The notes under the pieces were generated by a model that worked only from the letters and a program-made list of their open reading frames with translations, was not told the DNA's origin and did no database searches. A DNA stretch of 37,674 bases from Minisyncoccota bacterium (GTDB lineage: Bacteria; Patescibacteriota; Minisyncoccia; Phycocordibacterales; PALSA-1337). Positions 8,930-31,352 of this stretch are shown piece by piece. The position numbers and the translations under genes were made by a program. Each line of letters begins with the position of its first letter. Position 1 is the first letter of the stretch. Where the stretch lies: contig JAGOVB010000005.1 in NCBI GenBank assembly GCA_018060945.1, positions 1 through 37,674 on the forward strand. Direction: 5' to 3'.

Positions 8930-10111
8930 ATGCGTCATCATCATGCGCTGAAGATACGTTCTTCGCACCACCTCTACACATTCTGTCTTGCTGGGTTTAT
9001 CTTTAACCTACATATATCACTTTCAGCATATATAAACTCAACCTTCTTAAACGGATTTGTATCCGAAGATGTCGTGAGTATTCTATATATGACATCTTCG
9101 GTCTTGACTATTTTTGCTTTTCTAGGCTTTCACCATATCCTCAACCGTCTAGGAAACTACAAGGCTACGATATTTCTGATTGTAGTACAGATGGCACTAC
9201 TATTTGCAATGGCATTTGGCCAAACTTCACTCTCTGTCATCCCTGCTTTTATTGGCATGCTCGTTTTCGCAAGTATACTGGGCCTCAATATCGACACCTT
9301 CCTTGAGGATGAAACCGCAACAAGAAATACCGGTGGAACGAGAGGAATATTTCTGACTGCTGTAAATGCTGCTTGGGTCATCTCACCACTCCTTACTGGA
9401 CTATTACTTGACGGTACAACAAATTACCGTTTTGTGTATATTAGTGCACTTATTTTGACTGTTCCTTTTGCCTACTTGATCAGAAAAAACTTTTCAAATT
9501 TCAAAGACCCTCACTATTCACACGCCACTGTAAAAGCAACCGCACACAAAGTTTTCCATAGCCATGATTTAAAAAAGATTTTTATTGCAAACCTGATTCT
9601 CCAATCTTTCTACGCGTGGATGGTGATCTACACTCCTGTATATTTGTATAAATATATAGGCTTTGGTTGGGATGATATCGGACTCATGTTTACCATCATG
9701 CTCCTACCCTTTATTTTAGTAGACTACCCGCTTGGAAAATTGGCAGATAAAAAATATGGTGAAACAGAAATCATGTCGATTGGTTTTTTGATACTAGGAC
9801 TTTCGACGATAACCCTCGCATATATAAATAACAACAACATATTCCTCTGGACCGGTATCCTATTCCTCACTCGTGTCGGAGCTGCTTCAGTTGAGATGAT
9901 GATCGAAACATATTTCTTTAAAAAAGTACCAGAAAAAGACCTCGATGTACTTGGATTTTTTCGTATCACTCGTCCTGCCGCCTATATCATCGCGCCACTT
10001 ATTGCAACCCTTGCCCTAGGTATCATGGGTCACCAAGCAATGTTTATTGTCCTCGGAGTGATGTGCCTGTGTGGGCTATACTTTAGTCTCACTATTCGGG
10101 ACACAAACTAG
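8930..10111 (+). CDS. Major facilitator superfamily (MFS) transporter
   Basis: 393 aa with about 12 predicted transmembrane helices in two halves separated by a basic loop (about residues 190-215), the usual MFS layout and size. The cytoplasmic loop LNRLGNYKA after TM2 resembles the MFS motif A region and GKLADKKYGE between TM8 and TM9 its second copy. The substrate cannot be inferred. A TACAAT hexamer 9 nt upstream of the ATG suggests a separate, nearly leaderless transcript. The 3' end overlaps the convergent methyltransferase by 36 bp. Confidence 0.85.
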   Translation: MRHHHALKIRSSHHLYTFCLAGFIFNLHISLSAYINSTFLNGFVSEDVVSILYMTSSVLTIFAFLGFHHILNRLGNYKATIFLIVVQMALLFAMAFGQTSLSVIPAFIGMLVFASILGLNIDTFLEDETATRNTGGTRGIFLTAVNAAWVISPLLTGLLLDGTTNYRFVYISALILTVPFAYLIRKNFSNFKDPHYSHATVKATAHKVFHSHDLKKIFIANLILQSFYAWMVIYTPVYLYKYIGFGWDDIGLMFTIMLLPFILVDYPLGKLADKKYGETEIMSIGFLILGLSTITLAYINNNNIFLWTGILFLTRVGAASVEMMIETYFFKKVPEKDLDVLGFFRITRPAAYIIAPLIATLALGIMGHQAMFIVLGVMCLCGLYFSLTIRDTN

Positions 10112-10828
10112 GCACATAAACATCGGTATTTCTTTTCGCATTCGATCTTCTTCTGCTTTTTTTGGTCCATCTTGGCTTACTTTATGAGAAATCCACTCTT
10201 CGAGTTTTGCCACCGCAAATCCTGCTTTATTGAGTGCCTTAAAATACACCTGTAATGGTCGATGGAATGAAACTGTATTTATTTTATCCTCTTCTTTTCC
10301 AGGAGTCATATCTATCTCAGTGCTTGATTCTGACATATATGCGTCTACTCGTCGGTACTGAGCTTCTCCGTCCCACCCCCAAGATGTTTTCTTTGGGATA
10401 CGAAATGCAGGATGGTTGAGAACGATGATAAACCTACCGTTTTTGACCAGCTTCTTTTTGACCTCAGCCACTGTTTCATTTAATTTTTCAATATTTTGAA
10501 GTGCGAGCACGCAGATCGCTACATCTACTGTCTCATCTTTTACCATATCAAGCTTGTGCGACGGACTGGTAAAAAAATGCCCTTTTACATTTTTCTTTGC
10601 AATATTGATGAGTTCCCCTCCGATATCTACACCGACAACATTTGCTACTTCCATTGCTTTAGAGAAAAACCCCTGCCCGCATGCCACATCGAGAATATTC
10701 TGCCCTTTATGCGGAGCTACCAGTCGCATCATATGCGGCAAAATCACCTGAGACTGAAACGAGTCAGTATCGTTGACCACATCATCGTACCACTCACTTA
10801 CCTTTCCCCATGAAGTATCTTTTGACAT
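10076..10828 (-). CDS. Class I SAM-dependent methyltransferase
   Basis: 250 aa. SAM-binding motif I is ILDVACGQGFFS (about residues 44-55) and the acidic end of beta 2 is VVGVDIGGEL; VDVAICVLALQNI fits motif II/IV and NGRFIIVLNHPAF the post-motif strand. This is the Methyltransf_11/25 type, seen with small molecules, quinones or lipids; the substrate is not evident. Extra residues 150-200 form a variable insert common in CPR homologues. Convergent with the MFS gene with a 36-bp overlap of coding ends. Confidence 0.85.
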   Translation of the reverse strand: MSKDTSWGKVSEWYDDVVNDTDSFQSQVILPHMMRLVAPHKGQNILDVACGQGFFSKAMEVANVVGVDIGGELINIAKKNVKGHFFTSPSHKLDMVKDETVDVAICVLALQNIEKLNETVAEVKKKLVKNGRFIIVLNHPAFRIPKKTSWGWDGEAQYRRVDAYMSESSTEIDMTPGKEEDKINTVSFHRPLQVYFKALNKAGFAVAKLEEWISHKVSQDGPKKAEEDRMRKEIPMFMCLVCVPNSETKV

Positions 10829-10856
10829 ATAAATAGACTAACACAGAGTGACGAAA

Positions 10857-10895
10857 TATAAAAAAGAAAACCCCGGCCACATTGCTGTGCCGGGG
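10857..10895 (-). terminator. Rho-independent terminator of cassette 1
   Basis: Read on the minus strand, CCCCGGCAC and GTGGCCGGGG pair around a short AGCAAT loop (one bulged base) and are followed by TTTTCTTTTTT. It lies 22 bp after the stop codon. A second smaller hairpin (GACGG/CCGTC, 10905-10919) overlaps the stop codon. Confidence 0.88.
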
Positions 10896-10917
10896 GCTTC
10901 GTGCGACGGTCTTGCCG

Positions 10918-11868
10918 TCATTGATTTTGTTGGACCCGGTAGAACCTGGGGGGTTCGTAGACCGGTATAGTGGTTGGGGCATTCTGCCGCACCACCGCCT
11001 TCTCAGATTCGGGGAACCAGGTGCCGTTGAGGTCCGTGGTGCTCTCAATTATGAGTTGCTGCCCCGGACGACCACCCATGATATCGAGCTTTCCATCCCT
11101 ACGGATGAACAGCTGATAGGTGGTCTCGATGAGGTCACCATTGCCGTTGTAGCGGCGAACCGCCCCATCGACAAACGTGAACTCAAAGAACACGTCCCAA
11201 GGGCCATTTGGGCCCCCGTTGATCAGGTATTGCTCCTGAATCCGGACATCTCCGTCCGTTCCCGAACCTAGGTAGATCCGGTCATCGGTCGGAGATACGT
11301 CGGTGTCGACGTATCGATAGAACAGAGGTCCCGAAAAGTTGGGATTGTACCTGTTCCGGTCGAGAACCTCGAGCCGAGCGCGCACCACATTGGTGGCGAA
11401 CTTCAGGGGAAACCCTGTCCGAGGAAACTGGAGCTTGATTCCAGCGAGGTCATTTTCAGACCCAACCCCGTAAAGGACTGGGACAAAGTAAACCTGGATC
11501 TCACCCTCGAAATCAACATACACTTCCTGATGTGTGAGCGAGAAGTTTACTTCGACTGGTAGCATCGGATCGTACAAGGTGTGGGTTTTTGCACCCGCCA
11601 CCACATTCGTGAGATAGCCCTTAAGCTTGTTGCTGAAAGCATCGAATGTCTTATACCTTTCACCGCGCTTTGCGAAGACCCAGAGCCAATTTTCTCCGTT
11701 CTCATTGTCAGCCGGCTGAGTGCCGTTGATGACAAGTCCGTTTCCGTTGGTGATAGCGTTATGCAGCAAGGCTGCCTCACTACCGATGTCCAACTTCTTG
11801 AAATCCATACCTTCCGCGAGAAAGGCTGTGGATAGCGCACAAAGCGCCGTGAGGATGAATTTCTTCAT
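10918..11868 (-). CDS. Secreted protein with PVC-type 'RFYRV' C-terminus, GC-richer than its surroundings
   Basis: 316 aa. A clear signal peptide (residues 1-20, MKKFILTALCALSTAFLAEG). The body contains beta-rich extracytoplasmic sequence with no motif I recognise. The last 60 residues run GRPGQQLIIESTTDLNGTW ... PPRFYRV, which matches the short C-terminal beta module frequent in Verrucomicrobia and Planctomycetes secreted proteins. GC and codon choice are visibly higher than in neighbouring genes. It has its own promoter, an AGAAAGG Shine-Dalgarno 8 nt before the ATG, a roughly 75-nt leader and its own terminator. I infer acquisition from outside; function unknown. Confidence 0.78.
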   Translation of the reverse strand: MKKFILTALCALSTAFLAEGMDFKKLDIGSEAALLHNAITNGNGLVINGTQPADNENGENWLWVFAKRGERYKTFDAFSNKLKGYLTNVVAGAKTHTLYDPMLPVEVNFSLTHQEVYVDFEGEIQVYFVPVLYGVGSENDLAGIKLQFPRTGFPLKFATNVVRARLEVLDRNRYNPNFSGPLFYRYVDTDVSPTDDRIYLGSGTDGDVRIQEQYLINGGPNGPWDVFFEFTFVDGAVRRYNGNGDLIETTYQLFIRRDGKLDIMGGRPGQQLIIESTTDLNGTWFPESEKAVVRQNAPTTIPVYEPPRFYRVQQNQ

Positions 11869-11902
11869 CGTTTTTACCTTTCTACGTTAGGTGTTTCAAT
11901 TG

Positions 11903-11922
11903 CAGCCACCCGTGGGTTGCTG
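11903..11922 (-). other. 5'-UTR hairpin of cassette 1
   Basis: CAGC/GCTG and ACCC/GGGT arms with one mismatch form a stem-loop in the leader about 35 nt upstream of the cassette 1 start codon. It does not cover the Shine-Dalgarno, so it may stabilise the RNA or bind a regulator; it could also be incidental. Confidence 0.4.
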
Positions 11923-11951
11923 AGAAGGATGTCAATATCCAATCTACTACT

Positions 11952-11981
11952 ATTATAGCATGATTTATACACAAAAGTCAA
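11952..11981 (-). promoter_or_regulatory. Promoter of cassette 1
   Basis: On the minus strand TTGACT (11981-11976) and TATAAT (11957-11952) are 18 bp apart, with an extended TGC before the -10. The predicted start lies about 75-80 nt upstream of the ATG. Confidence 0.85.
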
Positions 11982-11992
11982 ATGTGTATAAA
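11964..11992. promoter_or_regulatory. Perfect inverted repeat around the -35 of cassette 1 (operator candidate)
   Basis: TTTATACACA and TGTGTATAAA form a perfect 10-bp inverted repeat with a 9-bp centre that contains the -35 hexamer. No T run follows on either strand, so it does not look like a terminator. A dimeric repressor or activator could bind here. Confidence 0.55.
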
Positions 11993-12006
11993 ATGCTTAT
12001 TTTAGG

Positions 12007-13512
12007 CTATATTTCCTCGAGTTTCGTATTTCTTTTTATCGTTATATTTGCAGATGCTTTAGGCTGTTTGCCTCCAGTGGTCTTGTCACAATCAAAAACC
12101 TCTAACGCATATACTCCGGGTGTTTGATTTGTATTTAATTGCTTATTAACAAGTTGCTCTGGGAAACCATTCGCAACACCACTTAATAATATGAGGTCAG
12201 TACTCAACTTACAGCTACTTGAAACTATCTGATCATAATCCACAAACGAATACACTGTAGCTCCCTGCTCCACTACTAGTGAGTCCTTTCCCTCCTCCAA
12301 ACTTCCCATTTCTTTTATATTTACTTTCAATCCCAATGTTGGATTTGCACTTACTGCACTCTCACAAACTCTTGTTGACCTATACCCCGCATCATCTTCT
12401 ACGGTTACTGTCGGTCCGGCAAAACTACCTCCATTTGGTATAGCTTCATTACTTTCATATGCTCCACCAGTTGAACTTGTGACTGCGTAACCAGTATATG
12501 TCGAACTCATAGGGAGAGCCCATGTATAGTCCACTTGCCCTATCGCACCAGAAGCAATTGCTTCCCATCGAGCACGGTTTCCTGTGGTTGTCTTTGCTGT
12601 ACAATATACTGATATACTATTTCCACCTGATGTGCTTCTCATTTGAGGACAGTCTGCTGTCCGAGTCTCACTTGAAATACTACTACTTACAACAACTTTT
12701 GGACCTGGCCATGTCGCATTTCCAATCATACTGACGTTACTAGTGAATTTTTCTGGAGTTGCGACAGTAGACGTACCCGCGCGGCCCCATGTCCATGTGT
12801 ATGTGAATTTTGGTACCTCACCTGAAGGACTATTTTCCTGACTAGCTGTCGCTGTCCATCGTGGTTTTTTGGTACCAGGTACAAATGAAGGATTTCCACA
12901 ACTTACGTTGAAAGAAATATCATCTAGAAATACATCCGTTGAGAGATAGAATTTTGTCCACCCTACGTTTTCTGACCCCCACGCAAATCCTGAAAAGATT
13001 CCTACCGTTGATGGCGGAGTCGGCTCTTTATATGTTACCCCAAGTAGTCCTGTAGATCGAGGTGACCTAAAATATACTTGATCTGAAAGTTTGATCCACC
13101 CATCCCACCCATCCGTACGGCTTGCACCGTTACAGTCTTTGGTTACCGTTCCAGAACATGCACGAGCCCAGCCTGTGACAGCTCCCCTTTCTAGTGCCGG
13201 CCCTGCGAGCACTACACGAGGAGCAGTACAAGCACCTCCGTCTGGACAACCACTGACATTGCTATCAAATTTTATCCACCCAATATTTGATGACCAAGCA
13301 TACCCGGAAAGACCGCCCGTATCGTCCATGATAACCTTGTAATTTCCACCCCCACTTAAGTCATTTGCACTGTTAAAAGAAATCCATCCGATAGTCGATG
13401 ACCACGCCCAACCAAATAAATCCTGTCCACCAGCAGCTTGAGCACTATAAGCTCCCACGAGAAGTGAGGCGATGAGAGCGAGGGACAATAATGTTTGCTT
13501 AAAATAGTTCAT
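12007..13512 (-). CDS. Secreted surface protein with AWS-x-x-IGWI repeats
   Basis: 501 aa. Signal peptide residues 1-27 (ending AYSAQA). Repeats: GWAWSSTIGWISFNS (34-48), GYAWSSNIGWIKFDS (70-84), a degenerate GWDGWIKLS near 135 and GFAWGSENVGWTKFY (175-189). This repeat family is typical of Paceibacteria surface proteins, often near pilus genes; its function is not known. The C-terminal two thirds is beta-rich and Ser/Thr-rich with paired cysteines (VSCGNP, VYCTAKT, RVCESAV), suggesting Ig-like domains. Last gene of the 14929-12007 operon. Confidence 0.85.
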   Translation of the reverse strand: MNYFKQTLLSLALIASLLVGAYSAQAAGGQDLFGWAWSSTIGWISFNSANDLSGGGNYKVIMDDTGGLSGYAWSSNIGWIKFDSNVSGCPDGGACTAPRVVLAGPALERGAVTGWARACSGTVTKDCNGASRTDGWDGWIKLSDQVYFRSPRSTGLLGVTYKEPTPPSTVGIFSGFAWGSENVGWTKFYLSTDVFLDDISFNVSCGNPSFVPGTKKPRWTATASQENSPSGEVPKFTYTWTWGRAGTSTVATPEKFTSNVSMIGNATWPGPKVVVSSSISSETRTADCPQMRSTSGGNSISVYCTAKTTTGNRARWEAIASGAIGQVDYTWALPMSSTYTGYAVTSSTGGAYESNEAIPNGGSFAGPTVTVEDDAGYRSTRVCESAVSANPTLGLKVNIKEMGSLEEGKDSLVVEQGATVYSFVDYDQIVSSSCKLSTDLILLSGVANGFPEQLVNKQLNTNQTPGVYALEVFDCDKTTGGKQPKASANITIKRNTKLEEI

Positions 13513-13518
13513 TTAGAA

Positions 13519-14208
13519 TTATCTAACTTTTATACCATTCTGGCCACTCTGTTCATGTCTTGGAGTGTGATATGCATCTTTTGACGTTCCGTCTGTACTA
13601 CAGAAAAAATAATTGTACCCTCTCCATCCGTACCCATCAGTTACATGAGCGATCCTCTTTCTTCCAGCGGCATCAGTAGTAGCACCAGAACTTAAGTTTC
13701 CTGAAGAACTACAAACTAGATTATCAGCACTTCGAATATTTACTCGCCAAGGGCAATTTTCTCCTGAAAGACAGAACCGCGCCACACCCTTACGACAGTA
13801 AACTTCGAGATCATCATCTTCCCGACTATTACCACTATCACTTACCGTACCGTCATTTGACACCCAGATCAAACCTTCCCCAACACACTCCACAGGATTG
13901 AGCTCTTCAGGAGATGTCCACGTAGCTAGCCCGTCTGCGTCTGAAACGAGAATCTTTCCATCGCCCTGACTACCATTGATGAGATAGAGACCCCCATTTA
14001 TCACTGCACCTCCCATAGTGAGAGCTCCTATCTTTACTTGATTAGCAGGACCTACGTTGATCGGCGCATCTACGTTATCTCCTGGTGGGTTTGCTGTAGG
14101 TGCCTTCCAATCACCTGCAGCTCCAGCGATGCTGAGACCTGTAGCGATAAATATTCCGGCTACTAGGAATGTAAGCTGAGCGATGTATTTTTTAAAAGTT
14201 TTTTTCAT
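13519..14208 (-). CDS. Secreted surface protein, copy B of a duplicated N-terminal module
   Basis: 229 aa. I chose ATG 14208, which gives the same start (MK-x-TFKKY) as its paralogue; the frame from 14256 would overlap the paralogue. Residues 1-74 are nearly identical to those of the 14711 gene: signal/anchor helix (about 11-30), then KAPTANPPGDNVDAPINVG. A second shared stretch is ILVSDADGLA (86-95). The remaining 130 residues are unrelated, Cys-rich (for example VYCRKGVARFCLSGENCPW) and may form a disulfide-stabilised binding domain. The pattern suggests a constant export/attachment leader with an exchangeable tip. Confidence 0.82.
   Translation of the reverse strand: MKKTFKKYIAQLTFLVAGIFIATGLSIAGAAGDWKAPTANPPGDNVDAPINVGPANQVKIGALTMGGAVINGGLYLINGSQGDGKILVSDADGLATWTSPEELNPVECVGEGLIWVSNDGTVSDSGNSREDDDLEVYCRKGVARFCLSGENCPWRVNIRSADNLVCSSSGNLSSGATTDAAGRKRIAHVTDGYGWRGYNYFFCSTDGTSKDAYHTPRHEQSGQNGIKVR
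13988..14208. repeat. Direct repeat, copy B of 5' gene duplication
   Basis: Identical over 13988-14181 to 14491-14684 (offset 503 bp), then differing by a few bases up to the start codon. The identity is at DNA level, so the duplication or gene conversion is recent. Confidence 0.93.
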
Positions 14209-14225
14209 ATTGATTAAATTATGGA

Positions 14226-14711
14226 TTATTGAAATGTATAAGGCAGTTCTGTACATCTTACATGACTAACTCTAACGTAACGATCACTGCCCTCGATTGA
14301 TTGATTACTTATACCTGATACATATGAACCTGCAGGACAATCAAAATCTTGGTCTAAGCCAATCCAGTATCTAATTGTGCGTGGCTGATTGTTTTCAGGG
14401 AAAAAATCATCGAAATCTTTCCAAGACGCCAAACCATCTGCATCTGAGACGAGAATCCTTCTCTCAGCCTGTTGCCCATTGCGTAGTATGAGACCCCCAT
14501 TTATCACTGCACCTCCCATAGTGAGAGCTCCTATCTTTACTTGATTAGCAGGACCTACGTTGATCGGCGCATCTACGTTATCTCCTGGTGGGTTTGCTGT
14601 AGGTGCCTTCCAATCACCTGCAGCTCCAGCGATGCTGAGACCTGTAGCGATAAATATTCCGGCTACTAGGAATGTAAGCTGAGCAACGTATTTTTTAAAA
14701 GTCTGTTTCAT
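14226..14711 (-). CDS. Secreted surface protein, copy A of a duplicated N-terminal module
   Basis: 161 aa, shorter paralogue of the next gene. Residues 1-74 are shared, including the hydrophobic segment and DAPINVG motif; ILVSDADGLASW follows. The C-terminal 65 residues differ, with a Cys pair (DFDCPAGSYVSG, HVRCTELPY). 17 bp separate its stop from the next ATG, so the two are co-transcribed. The substrate or partner is unknown. Confidence 0.82.
   Translation of the reverse strand: MKQTFKKYVAQLTFLVAGIFIATGLSIAGAAGDWKAPTANPPGDNVDAPINVGPANQVKIGALTMGGAVINGGLILRNGQQAERRILVSDADGLASWKDFDDFFPENNQPRTIRYWIGLDQDFDCPAGSYVSGISNQSIEGSDRYVRVSHVRCTELPYTFQ
14491..14711. repeat. Direct repeat, copy A of 5' gene duplication
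   Basis: Partner of 13988-14208 at 503 bp offset. The shared block covers codons 1 to about 74; both sequences diverge completely outside it. Confidence 0.93.
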
Positions 14712-14719
14712 ATAATTTA

Positions 14720-14929
14720 TTATTGTCCTTTATTAGATACCTTTGCCATCAAACGCAAAGCCTCTTCTTTTGTAAGAACTTTTGAACTTTGATGTACTTT
14801 TTCCATACGCATTGCATTTATCTCATCCTGACTAACAACGTCCAGAGAATTCATTTTATTGTAGTAGACATATATGCCAACAAGGGCAACAATTGCAATA
14901 CACACTAACGTAACAATTAAATGCTTCAT
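14720..14929 (-). CDS. Small single-pass membrane protein
   Basis: 69 aa. A hydrophobic helix (about residues 4-23) is followed by a charged helical tail (VSQDEINAMRMEKVHQ, KEEALRLMAKV). It begins the surface-protein operon. A TACAAT hexamer ends 6 nt before the ATG, suggesting a leaderless start. It is not a family I recognise; it could help anchor or export the surface proteins that follow. Confidence 0.6.
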   Translation of the reverse strand: MKHLIVTLVCIAIVALVGIYVYYNKMNSLDVVSQDEINAMRMEKVHQSSKVLTKEEALRLMAKVSNKGQ

Positions 14930-14935
14930 GACAAT

Positions 14936-16271
<1,336 letters not shown>

Positions 16272-30515: not shown

Positions 30516-30586
30516 AAAATTTTAATATAATAAACTTAGAAACATTATACAACACAACTTATATTCAACCTAAGCAACTTATTTTG

Positions 30587-30657
30587 CTGCGGGACTTGGA
30601 ATCGAACCAAAATTTTCGCTTTCAGAGAGCGACGTCCTACCTTTAGACGATCCCGCA
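30587..30657 (-). tRNA. trnQ: tRNA-Gln (anticodon CUG)
   Basis: 71 nt cloverleaf without encoded CCA. Acceptor TGCGGGA pairs with TCCCGCA, with discriminator G. D arm GTCT/GGAC, anticodon stem TCGCT/AGCGA with loop CTCTGAA giving CTG, a 4-nt variable loop, and TTTGG/CCAAG with TTCGATT in the T arm. The weak U1-A72 pair is a known glutamine identity feature. It reads the CAG codon. Confidence 0.93.
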
Positions 30658-30773: not shown

Positions 30774-31352
30774 ATGAACCTGCCAGATAGACTGGATTTG
30801 ATCAAACGACTATTCGATGAAGTCATCCTCGACGAAGAATTCGCTGAGGTGCTCAGGACAGAGCCCTTGAGAGAATGGAAAATACCCCAAGGATCCCATG
30901 TCTTCTTGAATAAGTTGACCGCCACCTGTCGCGACAACGGTTATCGCGTGCCCGACATCAGCTCTTACATGAGTGGTCAGCACCTTTTCCTCCTTATTGC
31001 AGGAATCATGCACAATGTTGACCCGCTCAATTACGGCCCGCGGCCGGCAAAGCCAAGCGGGCTGCTTTCACCCCAGCAGTTACTCGATGAAATCGAGACG
31101 CTGTGGAATCAAGGAAAGTTGCTTTTGGGCTATGACATCAGAGAGAAGACAGTCAAGACTTTCCCTCTCACTGATGAGGCAAGGCCTCTCGTCCGACAAG
31201 CAGTACAGTTCTGCCTAGACCACGGTATCGCACCGTCTAGCAGTGTGAGTGGCGAAGACGGCATCTGCGATGCGAATATCACTAGTCTCTCAGCAGCAAC
31301 CTACGCTGACCTCATCGAGAAGATAGGCCTAGCAATCGAAAGAGCCGACTGA
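30774..31352 (+). CDS. Unrecognised cytoplasmic protein, GC-richer one-gene cassette
   Basis: 192 aa. ATG 30774 is chosen because AAGGA lies 5 nt before it and the promoter directly upstream; the longer frame from 30711 would start in the promoter. No signal peptide or membrane helix. Largely helical and acidic at the start (DLIKRLFDEVILDEEFAEVL). I recognise no family. Codon choice (many CTC, GCC, CGC) and GC are above those of the neighbours. Its own promoter, Shine-Dalgarno and terminator make it self-contained, like cassette 1. Confidence 0.75.
   Translation: MNLPDRLDLIKRLFDEVILDEEFAEVLRTEPLREWKIPQGSHVFLNKLTATCRDNGYRVPDISSYMSGQHLFLLIAGIMHNVDPLNYGPRPAKPSGLLSPQQLLDEIETLWNQGKLLLGYDIREKTVKTFPLTDEARPLVRQAVQFCLDHGIAPSSSVSGEDGICDANITSLSAATYADLIEKIGLAIERAD

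Follow-up and report, generated by a model that had tools for sequence, protein, structure and literature searches.

The window, a contig of 37.7 kb, comes from an uncultured, tiny bacterium and carries on its minus strand a gene ('cassette 1'; 10918-11868) that runs from an ATG start to a TGA stop and encodes 316 amino acids. The product begins with a 20-aa signal peptide called by eye (MKKFILTALCALSTAFLAEG; 11809-11868, minus strand, cleavage between AEG and M), from which we infer that it is secreted. The gene has its own promoter, TTGACT-18-TATAAT with an extended -10 element (TG before the -10; 11952-11981, minus strand), followed by a leader of about 76 nt, a Shine-Dalgarno sequence, AGAAAGG (11877-11883, minus strand), and a strong intrinsic terminator (10861-10895, minus strand) made of a stem-loop (10895-10871) and a U-tract, with a predicted energy of -18 kcal/mol. 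The promoter is the sole site in the window, on either strand, with at least 11 of 12 matches; of 3000 dinucleotide-shuffled versions of the 138 bp upstream, 16 reach its score. A perfect 10-nt inverted repeat, TTTATACACA-N9-TGTGTATAAA (11964-11992), flanks the -35 box; it was matched in 13 of 3000 shuffles, neither arm recurs in the 284 kb of this genome that were examined, and its operator-like placement suggests a candidate operator through which the gene may be repressed. Repeats around the gene are few and short. Upstream lies surf501 (12007-13512), a conserved surface-protein gene with a 'GWAWSSTIGWISFNS' motif and homologues in relatives, then a gene for a 'DAPINVG' protein (13519-14256), to which similar genes adjoin surf501 homologues in G005, G012 and G031, and a paralogue of that gene (14226-14711), all on the minus strand. 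A first-pass annotation had described the gene as a self-contained unit with this promoter, a 75-nt leader, a Shine-Dalgarno sequence, a terminator and a signal peptide, placed between a methyltransferase and a surface-protein operon; each element was present, the signal peptide as judged by eye, and the operon has three genes.

The gene had also been described as lying above both neighbours in GC and codon choice, and its foreign composition was borne out. Its GC content is 0.532 and its GC3 0.644, against 0.416 ± 0.025 and 0.372 ± 0.040 for the 37 other genes of the window (z 6.7 for GC3), and its codon log-likelihood is the lowest among 39 genes. It is extreme, yet not alone, as about 5% of genes in 284 kb of its own genome have a GC3 above 0.55. 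Within the window, high GC is not unique to it either, since a gene at 30774-31352 (plus strand; 192 aa, GC3 0.585, z 5.3) is similarly GC-rich; that gene has no family match, has promoter- and terminator-like sequence of its own and adjoins tRNA-Gln (30586-30657). The highest GC3 in the 284 kb examined, 0.75, belongs to a Gfo/Idh/MocA oxidoreductase (L240, 18620-19735, plus strand).

The C-terminal approximately 55 amino acids of the protein (GRPGQQLIIESTTDLNGTW...RFYRV; 10924-11085, minus strand) form a domain that ends four residues before the stop, and the earlier suggestion that this end resembles secreted proteins of Verrucomicrobia or Planctomycetes found support as regards Verrucomicrobia. 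A degenerate motif pattern matched 18 loci across 85k species genomes, and ten of these are in Verrucomicrobia, mostly Limisphaerales and subdivision 3; in seven loci, all of them verrucomicrobial, the motif stood at the very end of the protein, 35-38 residues before the stop, and the non-verrucomicrobial matches were internal, in other proteins. A profile built from verrucomicrobial C-termini only matched the window protein with E 4e-9 (single target; none of 20000 shuffles scored as high), a test that is partly circular because its seeds had been picked by a motif derived from the query. With the query left out of the profile, the window protein was matched in its own whole genome at E 1e-6. 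Among 310 genes (45% of that genome) the window gene, which lies in the slot described below, was the only domain match. The domain is sporadic in the order (26 of 246 relatives with the same query-free profile), where 19 of the carriers, the window's own genome counted, fall within the 53 genomes of its family; among 59 Verrucomicrobia it occurs in 14, and one Limisphaerales-type genome has 51 copies. AlphaFold, given 54 alignment rows, predicted a six-stranded Ig/FN3-like beta sandwich (pLDDT 87). Fold searches with this model returned the common Ig/FN3-like arrangement only (best Z 6.7), and Foldseek gave no match with E < 0.001. The domain (STDLxxW...RFYR) has no Pfam entry; it is an undescribed family common to two phyla, and the tail of the window protein is predicted to be an Ig/FN3-like domain of a kind common in Verrucomicrobia. 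The same domain ends large secreted proteins of 800-1011 aa spread through the order (L204, L206, L207, L208, L209, L210, L212), with N-termini that look by eye repeat- or sulfatase-modifying-factor-like; the one in G007 (L212) has a host-like GC3, so some domain proteins are old residents. G002 encodes three secreted domain proteins (L203, 1072-2547 and 3255-4202; L220, 4480-5430), two of which are paralogues with 51% identity.

For the protein as a whole, searches of Pfam, NCBIfam, PHROGs, PADLOC and PDB sequences gave nothing significant. Close relatives were absent from 100 order and family relatives, 287 Patescibacteria and 387 Verrucomicrobia, homologues were absent from phage, plasmid and IMG/VR virus collections, and an 8-mer scan of the 85k species genomes found no homologue; weak matches in G053, G011, G380 and G109 were dismissed as chance from their alignments and stops. 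AlphaFold of the whole protein alone was unusable (pLDDT 34). No full-length relative was seen in the 387 Verrucomicrobia, although distant or unsampled donors are possible. Of the proposed origin in the PVC group, the resemblance of the C-terminus to a type that abounds in Verrucomicrobia is supported; an origin of the whole gene there is not, its body having no relative in those 387 genomes. The label 'moron-like' does not fit, as no phage genes were found around the gene and no phage homologues of its product.

The wider setting is a variable junction. A methyltransferase gene (10076-10828, minus strand) and an enolase gene (14988-16271, plus strand), which flank the gene and operon in the window, lie head-to-head and 77 bp to 2.7 kb apart in at least 16 genomes of the same family; in G001 the spacing is 149 bp, with nine more shared genes around. 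The segment of 4.2 kb between them (10829-14987) is missing from this junction in relatives and is therefore an insert comprising the window gene and the surface operon. The empty site that had been looked for thus exists for the whole segment and could not be demonstrated for the window gene by itself. In G026, of another genus, the junction holds a gene for a GloVer-repeat protein (L098, 3343-4830, minus strand; 52% GC, E 4e-39), a type present in 4 of 197 relatives. The methyltransferase-enolase junction was considered as a hotspot in its own right, given its varying gap and the GloVer gene in G026, and set aside because the association with surf501 is stronger.

Homologues of surf501 occur elsewhere in relatives, often adjoining putative valS or nusA genes (named from sequence), and the position just downstream of surf501 is a recurrent slot. 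At 15 of 28 testable loci in the family, the window included, it is occupied by a secreted-protein gene of the window gene's style; eleven of the 15, again with the window gene, end in a domain of the STDLxxW...FYR style, and four end in a PEP-CTERM or PEP-CTERM-like tail, two of these passing Pfam's cut-off. Other neighbourhoods gave one weak match among 362 genes. The test for enrichment in the slot is descriptive, its profiles A and B having slot genes as their training set. Held-out evidence comes from the Verrucomicrobia-only profile, which had already matched slot genes in G027 and G036 when the slot was recognised. Most slot genes are convergent with surf501 across a gap of 44-75 bp; unlike these, the window gene runs in the same direction as surf501, 139 bp away from it, and lies immediately downstream of it as slot members of family A do. 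We found no report of such a slot in the literature. The first-pass annotation had held that close homologues at the same locus in most sisters, with no PVC relatives, would speak against a transfer, and the outcome lies halfway: distant homologues sit just downstream of surf501 at roughly one in two of the sister loci that can be compared, but they too are Verrucomicrobia-like, and many have a foreign composition.

Two alternative classes of protein fill the slot, each homologous within itself. Class A comprises six slot proteins (from G036, G038, G037 and G027, and two from G016) that are clearly homologous from end to end, with 20-30% identity, and whose mature N-terminus follows the pattern SLPIGDxxTVREWAVTN; a protein each from G008 and G017, both outside the slot, also belong to it. 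The four PEP-CTERM slot proteins are homologous to one another and make up a second family, class B. Against class A, the window protein aligns over its full length (hhalign probability 91.7, E 8e-7, about 20% identity), with matched landmarks in the order LDIGSEAALLHNAITNGNG, RRYNGNGDLIE and the C-terminal domain. When the signal peptide and the domain were removed, the middle part scored 21.0 against 12.7 ± 2.1 for shuffles (maximum 16.7 in 30 shuffles), while hhalign gave this part a probability of only 2%. On these alignments the window protein is likely, though not proven, to be a diverged member of class A. It has no PEP-CTERM tail by Pfam or NCBIfam match. The body of class A was not found in the 387 Verrucomicrobia, in a search that covered this phylum and had no positive control. 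A weak class A match in G012 lies away from surf501 (L091, 1016-2053, minus strand).

The composition of the slot genes is independent of the host. Their GC3 lies between 0.45 and 0.68 whatever the host and shows no trend against that of the neighbours (slope 0.006, r 0.01, n=15), host GC3 at these loci being estimated from few neighbouring genes in a slot sample of 28 loci. The GC3 of surf501 itself tracks that of the host (slope 1.0, r 0.80), as does that of ordinary genes in the same downstream position (slope 1.17, r 0.96 against neighbours, n=14). Long-resident genes should drift to host composition. The slot genes show no such drift, and this points to a shared pool that has supplied them repeatedly, with codon selection as the competing explanation. 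Exosortase is absent from all 53 family genomes, so that genes with PEP-CTERM signals point to organisms that have the system. With the domain and the GloVer repeats, these signals make Verrucomicrobia our best guess, from sequence, for the pool; the bodies of class A and of the window protein have no relative in the 387 Verrucomicrobia, so that the whole gene is not shown to come from a verrucomicrobial donor.

On balance we think it probable, by a modest measure, that the recurrent slot serves for surface proteins of Verrucomicrobia style that can be exchanged. The window gene would encode a secreted cell-surface protein with a small C-terminal Ig/FN3-like domain, and the slot just downstream of the conserved Paceibacterial gene surf501 holds secreted proteins of this style that differ greatly from one genome to the next. 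Slot genes may enter and be replaced when DNA of a Verrucomicrobia-style gene pool is taken up and recombined; pili and competence genes are described as general in Patescibacteria in PMC12455944, and it is from this generality that natural uptake suggests itself as the route. A surface location is suggested by the divergence of the proteins, by their Ig/FN3-like domain and by the surface operon next to the gene, and there the slot proteins would probably contact partner or host cells. The slot also illustrates a way in which streamlined genomes may diversify their surface. A recurrent locus whose surface proteins ignore the host's composition and have tails of verrucomicrobial type offers a concrete, testable lead to the partners of Paceibacteria. 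It could even be that the family lives in contact with Verrucomicrobia and that the dedicated surf501 slot repeatedly installs exchangeable recognition or mimicry modules derived from the partner, each allele recording the partner, but this we regard as speculative and unlikely.

Another explanation for the data is that the slot genes are a vertically inherited, fast-evolving Paceibacterial family, acquired once in the distant past, that has stayed beside surf501 by descent, diverges fast owing to its surface exposure and has its high GC3 from codon selection and not from recent transfer. The internal homology of class A and of class B would fit, as would the position of the slot genes, mostly in one place and convergent to surf501, and the absence of a relative of the class A body from the Verrucomicrobia searched. 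A family of this kind is hard to reconcile with a GC3 that ignores the host while that of surf501, which is also fast-evolving and secreted, follows it, with the alternation of two unrelated classes in one slot, or with PEP-CTERM tails that persist without exosortase; we consider it possible but somewhat improbable. The earlier reading, a one-off transfer of a single verrucomicrobial gene as a moron-like cassette, draws on the GC3 z of 6.7, the gene's own promoter and terminator, its Verrucomicrobia-type C-terminus and the lack of a close homologue in the phylum relatives searched. Given the recurrence of the slot, the similarity to class A, and the absence of both a phage context and a full-length verrucomicrobial relative, we now find this reading decidedly improbable. 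An assembly chimera or misbinning, in which a verrucomicrobial fragment was joined into a Paceibacterial contig, might be suspected from the high GC and the lack of close relatives in the family; but the 37.7-kb contig extends to either side of the gene with flanks that match, other assemblies show the same arrangement, and a chimera is unlikely to consist of one complete gene with its promoter and terminator, which together leave very little room for artefact.

The preferred reading, an exchangeable slot, has partial parallels in known systems. Like the window gene, PEP-CTERM/exosortase substrates (PF07589, PF09721) are secreted proteins that have a C-terminal module and are encoded in single-gene transcription units; Verrucomicrobium spinosum has 65 of them (Haft et al., PMC1569441); class B slot genes carry the signal, but the window protein has no PEP-CTERM and the family no exosortase. 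GloVer tandem-repeat proteins (TIGR03803, Gloeobacter/Verrucomicrobia) are likewise Verrucomicrobia-type, secreted and sporadic in the family; the window protein has no such repeats and its own genome no GloVer match. Secreted proteins of Limisphaerales and other Verrucomicrobia share with the window protein the tail profile, its C-terminal position and the predicted beta fold, but their bodies are unrelated at the sensitivity used. Single-gene transfer into Patescibacteria is documented, mostly from other Patescibacteria, in the transfer accounts of PMC12455944 and PMC10031880; the donor table of the former does not include Verrucomicrobiota, and these accounts, as far as they go, mention no fixed slot adjoining the gene of a surface protein. 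Phage morons resemble the window gene as autonomous genes with their own promoter and terminator and an atypical GC, but the window gene lies outside any prophage and has no phage homologues. Elsewhere in the same genome, a prepilin-like protein with LLPALGRAKHAARSAGCLNNQKQ (L238, 7402-8112, plus strand), in which the N-methylation motif is the only Pfam match above the cut-off, presumably resembles the DUF1559 type of the PVC group.
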